DNA from: Pseudomonadota bacterium
Lineage (GTDB): Bacteria; Pseudomonadota; Alphaproteobacteria; Rhizobiales; Aestuariivirgaceae
Reading direction: 5' to 3'
Length of the DNA: 64,000 bases
Assembly (NCBI GenBank): GCA_963205315.1
Contig: CAUJIO010000030.1
Span: forward strand, 1 to 64,000
Shown here: positions 49,464 through 53,478 of the stretch, piece by piece
Position numbering within the stretch: position 1 is the first letter of the stretch
Layout: each line of letters starts with the position of its first letter
The notes under the pieces: generated by a model
Database searches by the model: none
What the model was told of the DNA's origin: nothing
The model's input: only the letters and a program-made list of their open reading frames with translations
Translations under genes and position numbers: made by a program

Positions 49464-52340
49464 ATGCGGCTCACCCGACAGTCTTCAATCCGTTCGCTTC
49501 TGGCGGCCTCGATGCTGACAGCCCTTGCGGCGGTGATGCCCGGTGGTGGAGCGATGCTGCTTGGAACCAGCCAGGCATTTGCCGATGAGGAGCCACCGCC
49601 GCCTCCGCCCCTGCCGGACGATGAGATCACCGCAACACCGGATGATGCCACCCCTTCGGAGGGATCCACTGAGGGAGACAAGGACGCCGCGCCGCCAACG
49701 GGTGATGGCGCGGAGTTTTCGCCTCTGCAACCCGGTGAAGCCGTTGTCACCCGCTTTTCCCATACGGTCGCGGAACCCGACGCTGAGGGCCAGCCCGTCA
49801 CGCTGATCGACGTCGAAGGCATCAGCGCCTCGATCCTGGATATTCGCAGGCCCGGTGAGCCGCCGTCCGGGCAACACTGGATTGATGAACCGCAGCGCCT
49901 CATGATCACCGCAGGCGAGGTCGGGCAGGTATTCGGCGTGGCGCTCAGGCCCCGCGAGGACAGCAAGTCGCCCGACATCTTCCTGTCAGCCACCTCGGCC
50001 TTCGGCCTGCATCGCACCGGCAAGGCTCCTGGCAACACCGAGTGGATGCCTGGCATGTGGGGACCCGATTCCGGCCCCGGCAGCATTTTCCGCGTTAGCG
50101 ACGAAACTGGATATCTGGCCGAGAAATTTACCGACGTGAAACTCGACGGCCGCGCCAACACCGGAGCGGCGCTCGGCAACATCGCCTATGACCAATGGCA
50201 CAGTAGGCTTGTCGTGTCGGATCTCGAAACCGGCATGATCCACGTCCTGAGTGCGACCACCGGCGAGGATTTCGGCCATTTCGATCATGGCACGGCTGGC
50301 CGCACCAGCTTTGTCGACGCCGCGACCGGGCAATCCATGTCGCTGCCGCCGGTCGCCTTCGATCCGAAGAGCGCGGCGGATATCGAGGAATGCGCCGGCG
50401 ACTTCGCCACCACGCCAGAGTGCTGGAACATCGCCGATTTCCGCCGCCGCGTCTGGGGCCTGAATGTTCGCAAGGATGCCAGCGGCGAGGTCCGTCTCTA
50501 TTATTCTGTCTGGAGCAGCGATGCTTTCGGCAATACGGCCTGGGCTCAGGCCGGCGATGAACGCCGCAATTCCGTCTGGTCGGTGGCCATCACCGGTGAC
50601 GGGATGTTCGATGAAGCCACCGTCCGGCGCGAATTTGTCATGCCGGGATTCTGGCCCACAACGCCCGACATGGGCGACAAGGCCGGTCGTAGCAATGCCG
50701 TCTCGGATATTGCCTTCCCGGACTGCGGCCCGCAGGACGTCATGCTGGTGTCCGAACGCGGTGGAATGCGTAATCTCGGGCTCGACAAAGTTGAGGCATT
50801 TTCCAGGCCCTATGAATCGCGCGTGCTGCGCTACGAACGTGGGACCGACGGCATCTGGCGTGCAAAAGGCCGCTACGATGTCGGCTTCCATGACCGCAGC
50901 AAGGACGGTGAGCCCATTGTTTTTGCCAGTGCCGCAGGCGGAGCCGCTTTTGGCTACGGCGTGACGGAGGATGGCCTCATCGATACGTCGAAGCCGTCGG
51001 AGTCGGTGTGGATGACCGGTGACGGCTTGTGCTCTCCCGCTGGCCCTTGCACCAGTCTGGCGACCGGCGAACATGATGACGACAGCGAAGTGCATGGCCT
51101 GCAGGGCACGCCCGCGGATGCGCTGGTTGCGGTCGAACCCGACTCAAAGCCCGATACCGCAGCACTCGATCGCTCCTATATGATCGACACGGACATAAAC
51201 ATCGGCACCGATGGCGCGCCGATTGCCGAAGAACGCACCCGTAACGATGCTACGCGCATCGGCGACGTGGCGATCTATCAGGTCTGCGGCGGCGGACCTT
51301 TGACTGAAGATGCGGGCGATGAACTGCCTCCCGGTCAACCGCCTGAAGACTGGCCGGTTCATAACCTGAAGATGAGCCATGAGAAATGGGCATCCTCGGG
51401 CCATCGCGTGCAGCGTTCGTGGCATCGCCGTGAAGGGTCCTGGCATGCGGTCGATCGTTCCTGGCACTGGAAGCGGCAGTCCTACCACTCGCGCAACGAG
51501 TCTTGGCACTGGCGCGGCGTCTCGGCCCATGGCCGCGACCGCAGCTGGCACAAGAAGGGTTTGTCCTCTCATGACAAACGCTATTCCTGGCACTCGCGTG
51601 ACCGCTCATGGCATCTGCGCAGCCGCAGCTTCCACAATAAGGAGCGCAGCTGGGACAATGGCCATGCGAAGGGCAAATCCTACCATGTCAAGACACGCAG
51701 CTGGAGCGGCGATCACAAGAAGGGTCAGTCCTATCACGTGAAGCCGCGCAGCTGGACAGGCGAACATGTGCGCAGCCGCAGCTATCACAACAAGAACCGC
51801 TCATGGGGCGACAACAACCCGAACCACGTCAAGGCCCGGTCGTACCACAAGCGTGACAAGACCTGGAGTGACGGCAGGCCCGATCACAACAAGGATCGCA
51901 GCCGCAATGATGACGGCGGTGGCGGCAAGCACGTGAAGGGCCGCAGCCAGCATGACAAAGGCAAGACCTGGGGTGGTGACGATAGGCCGGGGCATGTGAA
52001 GGCGAGAAGCGACGCCGACAACAAGCCGAAGCACACCAAGCAGAAGAGCGCTGCCGACGACAGGCCCAAGCATTCGAAACAGAAGAGTGCTGCCGACGAC
52101 AGGCCCAAGCATTCGAAGCAGAAGAGCGCTGCTGATGACAGGCCCAAGCATTCGAAGCAGAAGAGCGCTGCCGACGACAGGCCCAAGCATTCGAAGCAAA
52201 AGAGCAAGGCCGACGACAAGCCGAAGCACACCAAACAGAAGAGCAAGGCCGACGACAAGCCGAAGCATGGCAAGGACAGGAACGACAGCAAGAAAAAGCT
52301 CAAGCACAAGAAGAAGACCAGTGAAACAGTGCCGGCCTAG
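49464..52340 (+). CDS. Secreted protein with beta-propeller-like body and a long His/Trp/Ser/Arg/Lys repeat tail; unknown function
   Basis: The start at 49464 (MRLTRQSSIR) follows GGGAG and gives a Sec signal peptide cut after SQAFA (residue 40). Of 958 residues, 41-95 are an acidic Pro-rich linker (DEEPPPPPPLPDDE). Residues about 100-640 form a non-repetitive extracellular body with strand-turn patterns such as YDQWHSRLVVSDLETGMIHV that suggest a beta-propeller, and several Cys (ECAGDFATTPECW). From residue 644 to 938 the protein is one continuous array: twelve heptads of type RSWHxxx, then alternating 10- and 7-residue units, then 13-residue units such as KSAADDRPKHSKQ. The end is Lys-rich. 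The tail is strongly basic and could bind acidic polysaccharide, nucleic acid or metal. No family was recognised. It follows the UDP-GlcA/UDP-Xyl genes, which hints at an exopolysaccharide link. Confidence 0.8.
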   Translation: MRLTRQSSIRSLLAASMLTALAAVMPGGGAMLLGTSQAFADEEPPPPPPLPDDEITATPDDATPSEGSTEGDKDAAPPTGDGAEFSPLQPGEAVVTRFSHTVAEPDAEGQPVTLIDVEGISASILDIRRPGEPPSGQHWIDEPQRLMITAGEVGQVFGVALRPREDSKSPDIFLSATSAFGLHRTGKAPGNTEWMPGMWGPDSGPGSIFRVSDETGYLAEKFTDVKLDGRANTGAALGNIAYDQWHSRLVVSDLETGMIHVLSATTGEDFGHFDHGTAGRTSFVDAATGQSMSLPPVAFDPKSAADIEECAGDFATTPECWNIADFRRRVWGLNVRKDASGEVRLYYSVWSSDAFGNTAWAQAGDERRNSVWSVAITGDGMFDEATVRREFVMPGFWPTTPDMGDKAGRSNAVSDIAFPDCGPQDVMLVSERGGMRNLGLDKVEAFSRPYESRVLRYERGTDGIWRAKGRYDVGFHDRSKDGEPIVFASAAGGAAFGYGVTEDGLIDTSKPSESVWMTGDGLCSPAGPCTSLATGEHDDDSEVHGLQGTPADALVAVEPDSKPDTAALDRSYMIDTDINIGTDGAPIAEERTRNDATRIGDVAIYQVCGGGPLTEDAGDELPPGQPPEDWPVHNLKMSHEKWASSGHRVQRSWHRREGSWHAVDRSWHWKRQSYHSRNESWHWRGVSAHGRDRSWHKKGLSSHDKRYSWHSRDRSWHLRSRSFHNKERSWDNGHAKGKSYHVKTRSWSGDHKKGQSYHVKPRSWTGEHVRSRSYHNKNRSWGDNNPNHVKARSYHKRDKTWSDGRPDHNKDRSRNDDGGGGKHVKGRSQHDKGKTWGGDDRPGHVKARSDADNKPKHTKQKSAADDRPKHSKQKSAADDRPKHSKQKSAADDRPKHSKQKSAADDRPKHSKQKSKADDKPKHTKQKSKADDKPKHGKDRNDSKKKLKHKKKTSETVPA
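51393..52277 (+). repeat. Coding repeat array with growing unit length (7, 10, 13 residues)
   Basis: Twelve consecutive 21-bp units (51393-51644) encode heptads xS(W/Y/F)Hxxx. Then 30-bp units (RSWDNGHAKG, RSWSGDHKKG, RSWTGEHVRS) alternate with 21-bp units (KSYHVKT, QSYHVKP, RSYHNKN). Then come units of 13-15 residues (RSWGDNNPNHVKA). The array ends in seven 39-bp units. Confidence 0.9.
52005..52277 (+). repeat. Seven tandem 39-bp units
   Basis: Units start at 52005, 52044, 52083, 52122, 52161, 52200 and 52239. The middle four encode the identical peptide KSAADDRPKHSKQ with only a few silent changes, so they arose by recent tandem duplication. The flanking units are diverged (RSDADNKPKHTKQ, KSKADDKPKHTKQ). 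Confidence 0.93.
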
Positions 52341-52425: not shown

Positions 52426-53478
52426 ATGAGCCAGTCACCGATGCAATTGATCCGTACTCTGACCATGGCGCTTATGGTCTTTGCGTCGGCCGGTGCCTGG
52501 GCCGGAACGACCGTGATCCATACCAATGAAGCCTATCTCGACGAGGCGCGGAATACGCCGGACTTCAGCATTGACGACAAGCTTGCCGTCTTCCGGCTGG
52601 TGCTGGACGCCCTGCCTCCAACGGTCAAGGTCTATCCGACCGAAAATTACTATTACTTCTGGTTTCACCACAACGGCATCAAGTATGCGGGCAACATCCG
52701 CTTCGACGCCGAGGACCGCGACCAGGGTCTTGTACATTTCAACTACTTCAAGGACTTCACTCCATGGCAGCGGGACGAGGCGGATTTCAGCGCTGTCTTG
52801 GGCGTGAAGGATGGTGTGAAGGTCAGCAAGGCTGGCAAGCTCAGCTATGATGTGTCCTTCGGCAGCAAGTCCGTCCGCTTCAATCTGAATGACTTGTCCG
52901 GCGTGAAGCCGCCGCCAGGAGCCATCGGCAAGGGCGAGACCTATATTGGTCCGGTGTTCGATGAATCGGGAATCCGCTTCTTCCTCGTATTCCACGAAGA
53001 GCTGAAGATTTTCATGTTCATCCTCGATGAATCGGCCCCCGCCGCTGATCAGTATGATGTGCCGCCTCAGTCGGACCGGCTGACCATTGGCATCCGCTCA
53101 GGCTTCGCCTTCTATGCCGACCGCTATGCCGATCGCAAAATTCTCGTCGGCGTGAACCAGATCAACACGTCGGTGAATAACTACTTCGACGGGCCCTTCG
53201 ACCAGTTACCCGACAATTTTATTGAGGGCGAAGCGTTGCGGCGCGCCATCCTTGCCGCCAGCCCGGAGATGAAGGGCGGGATCGACCGCTTCGGAAATTC
53301 GCCCGACAACGAAACGCGCTATCTCATCGCGCCCTATTTGCAATATGAGGATGTGAGTGAGCTCGGCGTCATTGCACAATGTGCGGCAACCGAAAAGCTC
53401 CCCGCCTACTACAATTGCTTTTCCTTCACCGGAGGCGACGAGGGCGATGACCCACCGCCCGATGGCGGCAATCCTTGA
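52426..53478 (+). CDS. Secreted protein of unknown function, 350 aa
   Basis: The start at 52426 (MSQSPMQLIRTL) follows AGGGAG and precedes a Sec signal peptide (cut after AGAWA, residue 26). The mature protein is rich in aromatic residues and beta-strand patterns (PTENYYYFWFHHNGIKYAGN), has a pair of Cys near the C-terminus (IAQCAATEKLPAYYNCFSF) and ends in an acidic Gly/Pro tail. I do not recognise a family. It lies directly behind the repeat protein with a terminator in between, so the two may be functionally paired but unequally expressed. Confidence 0.75.
   Translation: MSQSPMQLIRTLTMALMVFASAGAWAGTTVIHTNEAYLDEARNTPDFSIDDKLAVFRLVLDALPPTVKVYPTENYYYFWFHHNGIKYAGNIRFDAEDRDQGLVHFNYFKDFTPWQRDEADFSAVLGVKDGVKVSKAGKLSYDVSFGSKSVRFNLNDLSGVKPPPGAIGKGETYIGPVFDESGIRFFLVFHEELKIFMFILDESAPAADQYDVPPQSDRLTIGIRSGFAFYADRYADRKILVGVNQINTSVNNYFDGPFDQLPDNFIEGEALRRAILAASPEMKGGIDRFGNSPDNETRYLIAPYLQYEDVSELGVIAQCAATEKLPAYYNCFSFTGGDEGDDPPPDGGNP

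Follow-up and report, generated by a model that had tools for sequence, protein, structure and literature searches.

H-x4-[ST] motif arrays and their putatively exported partner: a probable two-gene cell-envelope system in Hyphomicrobiales

Repeat tail and body of the array protein

The stretch of DNA analysed, here called the window, comprises 64,000 nucleotides of contig CAUJIO010000030.1 (assembly GCA_963205315.1; Alphaproteobacteria, Rhizobiales, Aestuariivirgaceae). It encodes a 958-residue protein whose tail carries an array of the motif H-x4-[ST], i.e. His with Ser or Thr five residues on, directly followed on the same strand by the gene of a second protein, designated the partner. Both products are probably exported, as signal sequences can be read from the translations. 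The following features were located:

49464-52340, + strand: open reading frame of the array protein, 958 residues, in three parts (probable signal peptide, body, tail)
49464-49586, + strand: N-terminal segment MRLTRQ...SQAFA of the array protein, from the translation a probable Sec signal peptide
49716-51293, + strand: body, residues about 85-610, a predicted beta-propeller domain (AlphaFold2 model, VIA-align)
51360-52322, + strand: H-x4-[ST] array with 33 motifs and 34 His (predicted disordered chain)
52014-52268, + strand: DNA tandem repeat inside the array, 39 bp in 6.5 copies with 87% matches (Tandem Repeats Finder)
52426-53478, + strand: partner gene, predicted exported protein of about 350 aa, signal peptide at about 52426-52506 and mature part at 52507-53475

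The earlier note, made from the sequence alone, had described an exported protein of an unannotated family, and in agreement with this no match was obtained in Pfam, NCBIfam or PADLOC, the body family likewise being without a Pfam or NCBIfam match. On the basis of its AlphaFold2 model the body is a beta-propeller, which in VIA-align was superposed on nidogen (1npe) with a Z of 24.6 and an rmsd of 2.7 over 262 of 263 residues, and which also aligned with the propellers of LRP6, LRP4 and NHL proteins. The likeness to the YWTD and NHL propellers (nidogen, LRP6, TRIM NHL) lies in the predicted fold, whereas identity is about 10% and the body has no Pfam membership; what is shared is the fold only.

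The repeat tail had been placed at 51393-52277 and was found there, the H-x4-[ST] motifs spanning slightly more (51360-52322). Twelve heptads are followed by 10-residue units alternating with 7-residue units and then by mostly 13-residue units, as had been read, together with one 14-residue and one 15-residue unit. All twelve heptads of the proposed form xS-W/Y/F-H-xxx were present, two of them lacking the aromatic (VSAH, LSSH). The spacer from Ser to the next His was 2 (16 times), 5 (three times) or 8 (eight times), and also 1, 3, 9 and 10, and the proposed lengthening in steps of three therefore holds only loosely, for the 2/5/8 series. Tandem repetition at the DNA level was limited to the last part of the array, where the near-identical DNA of the last units, already pointed out in the earlier note, corresponds to the 39-bp repeat. 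With one genome per species, this repeat is evidence of recent duplication and not of ongoing polymorphism.

In the window tail the His-to-Ser/Thr distance of five was counted 32 times (z = 13.5 versus shuffles), the second-highest distance being 12, i.e. one heptad further, and the pattern is not due to chance. The tail is predicted to be disordered, appearing in the full-length AlphaFold2 model as coil throughout, without secondary structure and with a pLDDT of about 30-40, a low confidence that makes the model uninformative on motif structure. A search of the window genome returned no second array.

The H-x4-[ST] motif in related arrays

Over 32 arrays, the window included, 1042 of 1103 His (94%) were followed by Ser or Thr at distance five, versus 23 of 221 His in the remainder of the same reading frames, the arrays for these counts having been delimited using the motif. 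The shuffle test on the first seven tails is the less biased figure, because these were cut by eye and not by motif; the distance was there kept by 32/33, 16/17, 44/45, 31/31, 35/41, 60/60 and 34/34 His (z versus shuffles between 7 and 18), and five was the sole enriched distance common to all seven, barring the harmonics of each tail's own unit period. Among the 61 exceptional His of the 32 arrays, 32 sit within another motif copy, and the 29 outside any copy lack the hydroxyl residue, which is otherwise Ser (960) or Thr (82).

The motif consensus was [hydrophobic or Ser]-H-x-[K/R/P]-x-x-[S/T]. With loci weighted equally, position +2 was K/R in 43%, P in 27% and D/E in 1%; Pro was absent from position +1, Gly was frequent at position +4, and position -1 was usually hydrophobic or aromatic, or else the Ser of the preceding copy. 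The arrays contain 7 to 60 copies each and 835 distinct motif contexts in all. The spacer from Ser to the next His is free, ranging from 1 to 30: L080 and L019 have a spacer of 1, L022 has 2 and 3, the window 2/5/8 and the period-27 group 3/6, and in L023 the spacer reaches 30. Accordingly diverse are the tails themselves, consisting of hexads in L019 (SHNRWR SHSRTL), of heptads and octads in L022 (SFHRPPKSPHLPRG, GSKVHIPR), and of 27-residue super-units in L023, L024 and others. The steps of three fail as a rule in L020, L022, L023 and other arrays, and the frame (R/K)S...HxK of the earlier note turned out to be a local form of the invariant H-x4-[ST]. The reading frame was open at 31 other loci, i.e. 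the interruption in relatives that the earlier note had named as counter-evidence was not encountered there.

On a quick tree of the partner, with spacing classes assigned by hand, the dominant spacer class switches at least eight times while the motif is kept. The Ser codons of the window motifs belong to both families (17 AGY, 14 TCN), and the pattern is therefore kept at the protein level. In the translations compared, a single short motif stays constant while every other feature of the chain varies. A text search of the literature for the motif returned no paper.

Among the 32 arrays, Pro content varied from 0 to 21% and net charge from -5 to +92. Since the charge spans this range, basic polyanion binding was rejected as a shared function, and with it the general role in binding acidic polymers that had been suggested for the basic tail, similar arrays being found at net -5 (L095), 0 (L097) and +2 (L090).

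The 27-residue super-unit consists of three Hx4S motifs (e.g. HLKWKSKFHKKWKSVQHNKATSKPFP) and was observed in L023, L024, L103-L105, L107, L109 and L138, in several families.

Array genes and the partner gene

In all 32 array loci, the window included, the array gene lies directly upstream of the partner gene on the same strand, the array stop and the mature partner being 72-434 bp apart in the 31 besides the window. The partner was present in 44 of 397 genomes of the order. When the flanks of the partner were inspected in these 44 genomes, 30 had a long same-strand Hx4S array ending immediately upstream of it; nine had small exported proteins beside it with 2 to 8 HxRxxS-type motifs (e.g. HWRWGS...HNRARS, HNKWKS, HYRRRS), a class of weaker evidence with few motifs per protein; one flank was cut by the contig end (G218); and no array was found near the partner in four (G042, G129, G098, G062), nor in G656 outside the order.

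A first array profile, built from the period-27 arrays of ten genomes, matched 18 of the 397 genomes, of which 17 were partner-positive (Fisher 3.8e-17), and without its ten source genomes 7 of 8 (p = 1.7e-7), p-values that overstate independence because the genomes are related. The single partner-negative match (G404, E 8.6e-4) had no array on inspection. A hexad profile, of different spacing, matched 6 of 266 genomes, all six partner-positive and one having supplied a row of the profile. Among 385 genomes at class level, the partner was present in two, the window genome included, and the array profile produced two weak matches, in ORFs 33 and 76 residues long.

Propeller homologues in genomes lacking the partner had no Hx4S array in the assessable cases (G016, G019, G038, G040, G045, G047, G052) and ended in other C-termini, some of them Cys-rich. 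The arrays of L078, L081 and L107 are without a propeller, yet still lie beside the partner, and several homologues have DUF11 and PG_binding_1 modules inserted between body and array; the linkage of arrays to the partner is stricter than to any anchor domain. Strict gene order, genome-wide co-occurrence and joint absence in the genomes compared show that arrays and partner go together. The earlier note had regarded the neighbouring ugd and UDP-xylose synthase genes as informative, and neither has a homologue at any other locus; the most informative part is the conserved downstream partner gene, which that reading had missed.

The partner was modelled by AlphaFold2 with a mean pLDDT of 91 and a pTM of 0.88. 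No domain or family was recognised in Pfam, NCBIfam, PHROGs, PADLOC or PDB sequences, and Foldseek gave no match against the PDB at E 0.001, nor a convincing one against BFVD; against PDB and BFVD together it gave mainly sliding-clamp matches (E>0.003, TM about 0.1), and the best VIA-align hit reached a Z of 4.3 over 74 residues. The modelled fold, being without a convincing match, is possibly new, which the searches do not prove. Residues invariant among 52 partner sequences include R65, D152, R197, R210, the stretch D228-G-P-F-D-Q233 (with D228, D232 and Q233) and two Cys, and no His, Ser or Lys is invariant. The partner was not found in plasmids. As judged from these sequence comparisons, the partner family is previously undescribed.

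A contig search for relatives yielded two metagenome bins, one of Bradyrhizobiaceae and one of Rhizobiaceae, on which the assignment of the window's order to Hyphomicrobiales is based. None of 36 other genomes of the window's genus carried the partner, whereas distant families have it, and in four of the 36 the propeller was present without the Hx4S tail. Transfer may have brought in the array-partner pair, or it may often have been lost. Two partner genes lie in tandem in G048 (L036/L042), and G073 (L107/L138) encodes two array proteins close to each other and carries the partner twice.

The same propeller family also bears another kind of tail, observed in L026, L027 and L028, where Cys-rich units (e.g. 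CPKGWRKVGGKC or CPKARRKSNGGCCPKGTKADGNQCF) follow DUF11-like modules in genomes without the partner. In L130 (G050 C47), a second protein of an array genome, Cys-rich modules alternate with short Hx4S runs (PVHAPALSRFHQTGASRAHNPANS).

Known systems and interpretation of the pair

The closest known system is His-Xaa-Ser. According to Haft and Basu, as cited in PMC9062424, the envelope protein HxsA has a PG_binding_1 domain, a His/Ser repeat tail and dedicated companion genes, of which HxsB and HxsC are the putative maturases. The two systems are alike in the His/Ser repeats, PG_binding_1 and the dedicated companion genes, but the repeat there is H-x-S, whereas distance five is invariant here and distance two mostly depleted (z of -2.7 in the window, -2.8 in L022). 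The window array protein had no NCBIfam match, TIGR03979 (HxsA) included, and L107 scored 36.4 with this model against a cut-off of 121.65, in the peptidoglycan-binding part only. The radical-SAM proteins HxsB (TIGR03978) and HxsC (TIGR03977) exceeded their cut-offs in none of 15 array or partner genomes, with sub-threshold matches also in 14 of 14 control genomes, and unlike them the partner is no radical-SAM protein. Identity with the His-Xaa-Ser radical-SAM system was rejected on repeat, curated model and maturases alike.

Bacillus spore coats contain the Ser-repeat tails of CotB and CotG together with the kinase CotH (PMC7821199). Basic Ser-repeat regions, a small cluster and a dedicated protein acting on many copies are points of likeness; the difference is that this set belongs to the spore coat of Bacillus, and no CotH kinase domain appeared among the Pfam matches (E<=1) of 52 partner proteins. 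In EPYC1 and CsoS2, which act with Rubisco, a disordered chain carries many copies of a short motif with free spacers and meets one globular partner, inside the cell or a microcompartment; they differ from the Hx4S arrays in that motif, partner and organism group are unrelated. By analogy, the array-partner pair perhaps works like CotB/CotG-CotH or like the intracellular motif scaffolds, and belongs to neither. Motif arrays that work with a reader are a familiar concept in general; here, motif and partner matched no family searched and the defining features of the His-Xaa-Ser system were not found.

We tentatively favour the view, at somewhat less than even chances, that the array is a multivalent docking scaffold in the envelope whose motif is recognised by the partner. 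The tail is in this view an array of linear motifs strung on a disordered chain with free spacers, and the exported partner encoded downstream would read the motif by physical binding. The propeller, or in other species DUF11 and the peptidoglycan-binding module, would place the array in the cell envelope, where up to 60 copies could gather many partner molecules along the chain.

It is somewhat unlikely that the array serves instead as a multi-site substrate, its Ser/Thr being covalently modified or crosslinked by the partner or by an enzyme that the partner helps, with His taking part either in recognition or in the bond, in analogy to the poly-modified Ser-repeat tails of spore coats. The strict need for a hydroxyl is explained at least as well by a modified Ser/Thr, and modification therefore stays a serious rival, to which the preferences at +2 and +1, resembling those of a substrate site, and the many invariant charged or polar residues of the partner also point. 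ATP and nucleotide sugars are lacking outside the cytoplasm, and an exported partner would be away from both; it matches no enzyme family or fold, it lacks an invariant His, Ser or Lys, and HxsB and HxsC over cut-off were missing from the 15 array genomes searched. Because the partner is unlike any enzyme in these respects and would work outside the cytoplasm, we infer docking rather than catalysis.

Adjacency and co-occurrence do not show contact, and the partner might act as chaperone, export factor or regulator for a tail that itself binds a third thing, such as metal, acidic polysaccharide, nucleic acid or cell wall. The His-rich, mostly basic chains would be plausible metal or polyanion binders, and PG_binding_1 modules adjoin the array in several homologues, but charge is not conserved, simple charge or His binding leaves the exact distance of five unexplained, and the linkage to the partner exceeds that to any anchor domain; this reading is distinctly unlikely. 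Most improbable of all is a functionless product of slippage whose regularity is a by-product of tandem duplication. The near-identical DNA of the terminal 13-residue units fits such drift, but the distance recurs in otherwise unlike arrays with changed spacing, which already refutes it, and both Ser codon families, the many distinct motif contexts and the strict partner linkage also stand against it.

With docking as the favoured mode of action, array and partner very probably form a new cell-envelope system, as judged from gene and protein sequences, in line with the earlier note, where the protein with the unusual tail of repeats was taken as possibly a new matrix component. In its full form the proposal, which we consider probable, is an undescribed two-gene envelope system in Hyphomicrobiales, in which disordered arrays of 7-60 copies of H-x-[KRP]-x-x-[ST] are displayed on varied carriers (propeller, DUF11 with a peptidoglycan-binding module, or small exported proteins) and a dedicated exported protein, possibly with a new fold, binds or modifies each copy. 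An odd repeat tail thereby becomes a testable pair of a one-line motif and a single accompanying protein. Should each copy indeed be bound or modified by the partner, this would be a new bacterial way to order envelope proteins by a motif array, and two sets of unannotated proteins would become open to functional tests; a further possible use of motif and partner is as a tag-and-reader couple.

Two kinds of small, putatively exported proteins were observed beside the partner. Those in L086, L088, L091, L092 and L099 are divergently oriented and carry HWRWGS or HNRARS motifs; one of these proteins matched HxsA4 weakly (E 0.003), scoring far below the cut-off. Those in L071, L077, L079 and L108 are extremely rich in Arg and Tyr, and combine a twin-arginine-like leader (GRRMLLAGG) with HxRRxS motifs.
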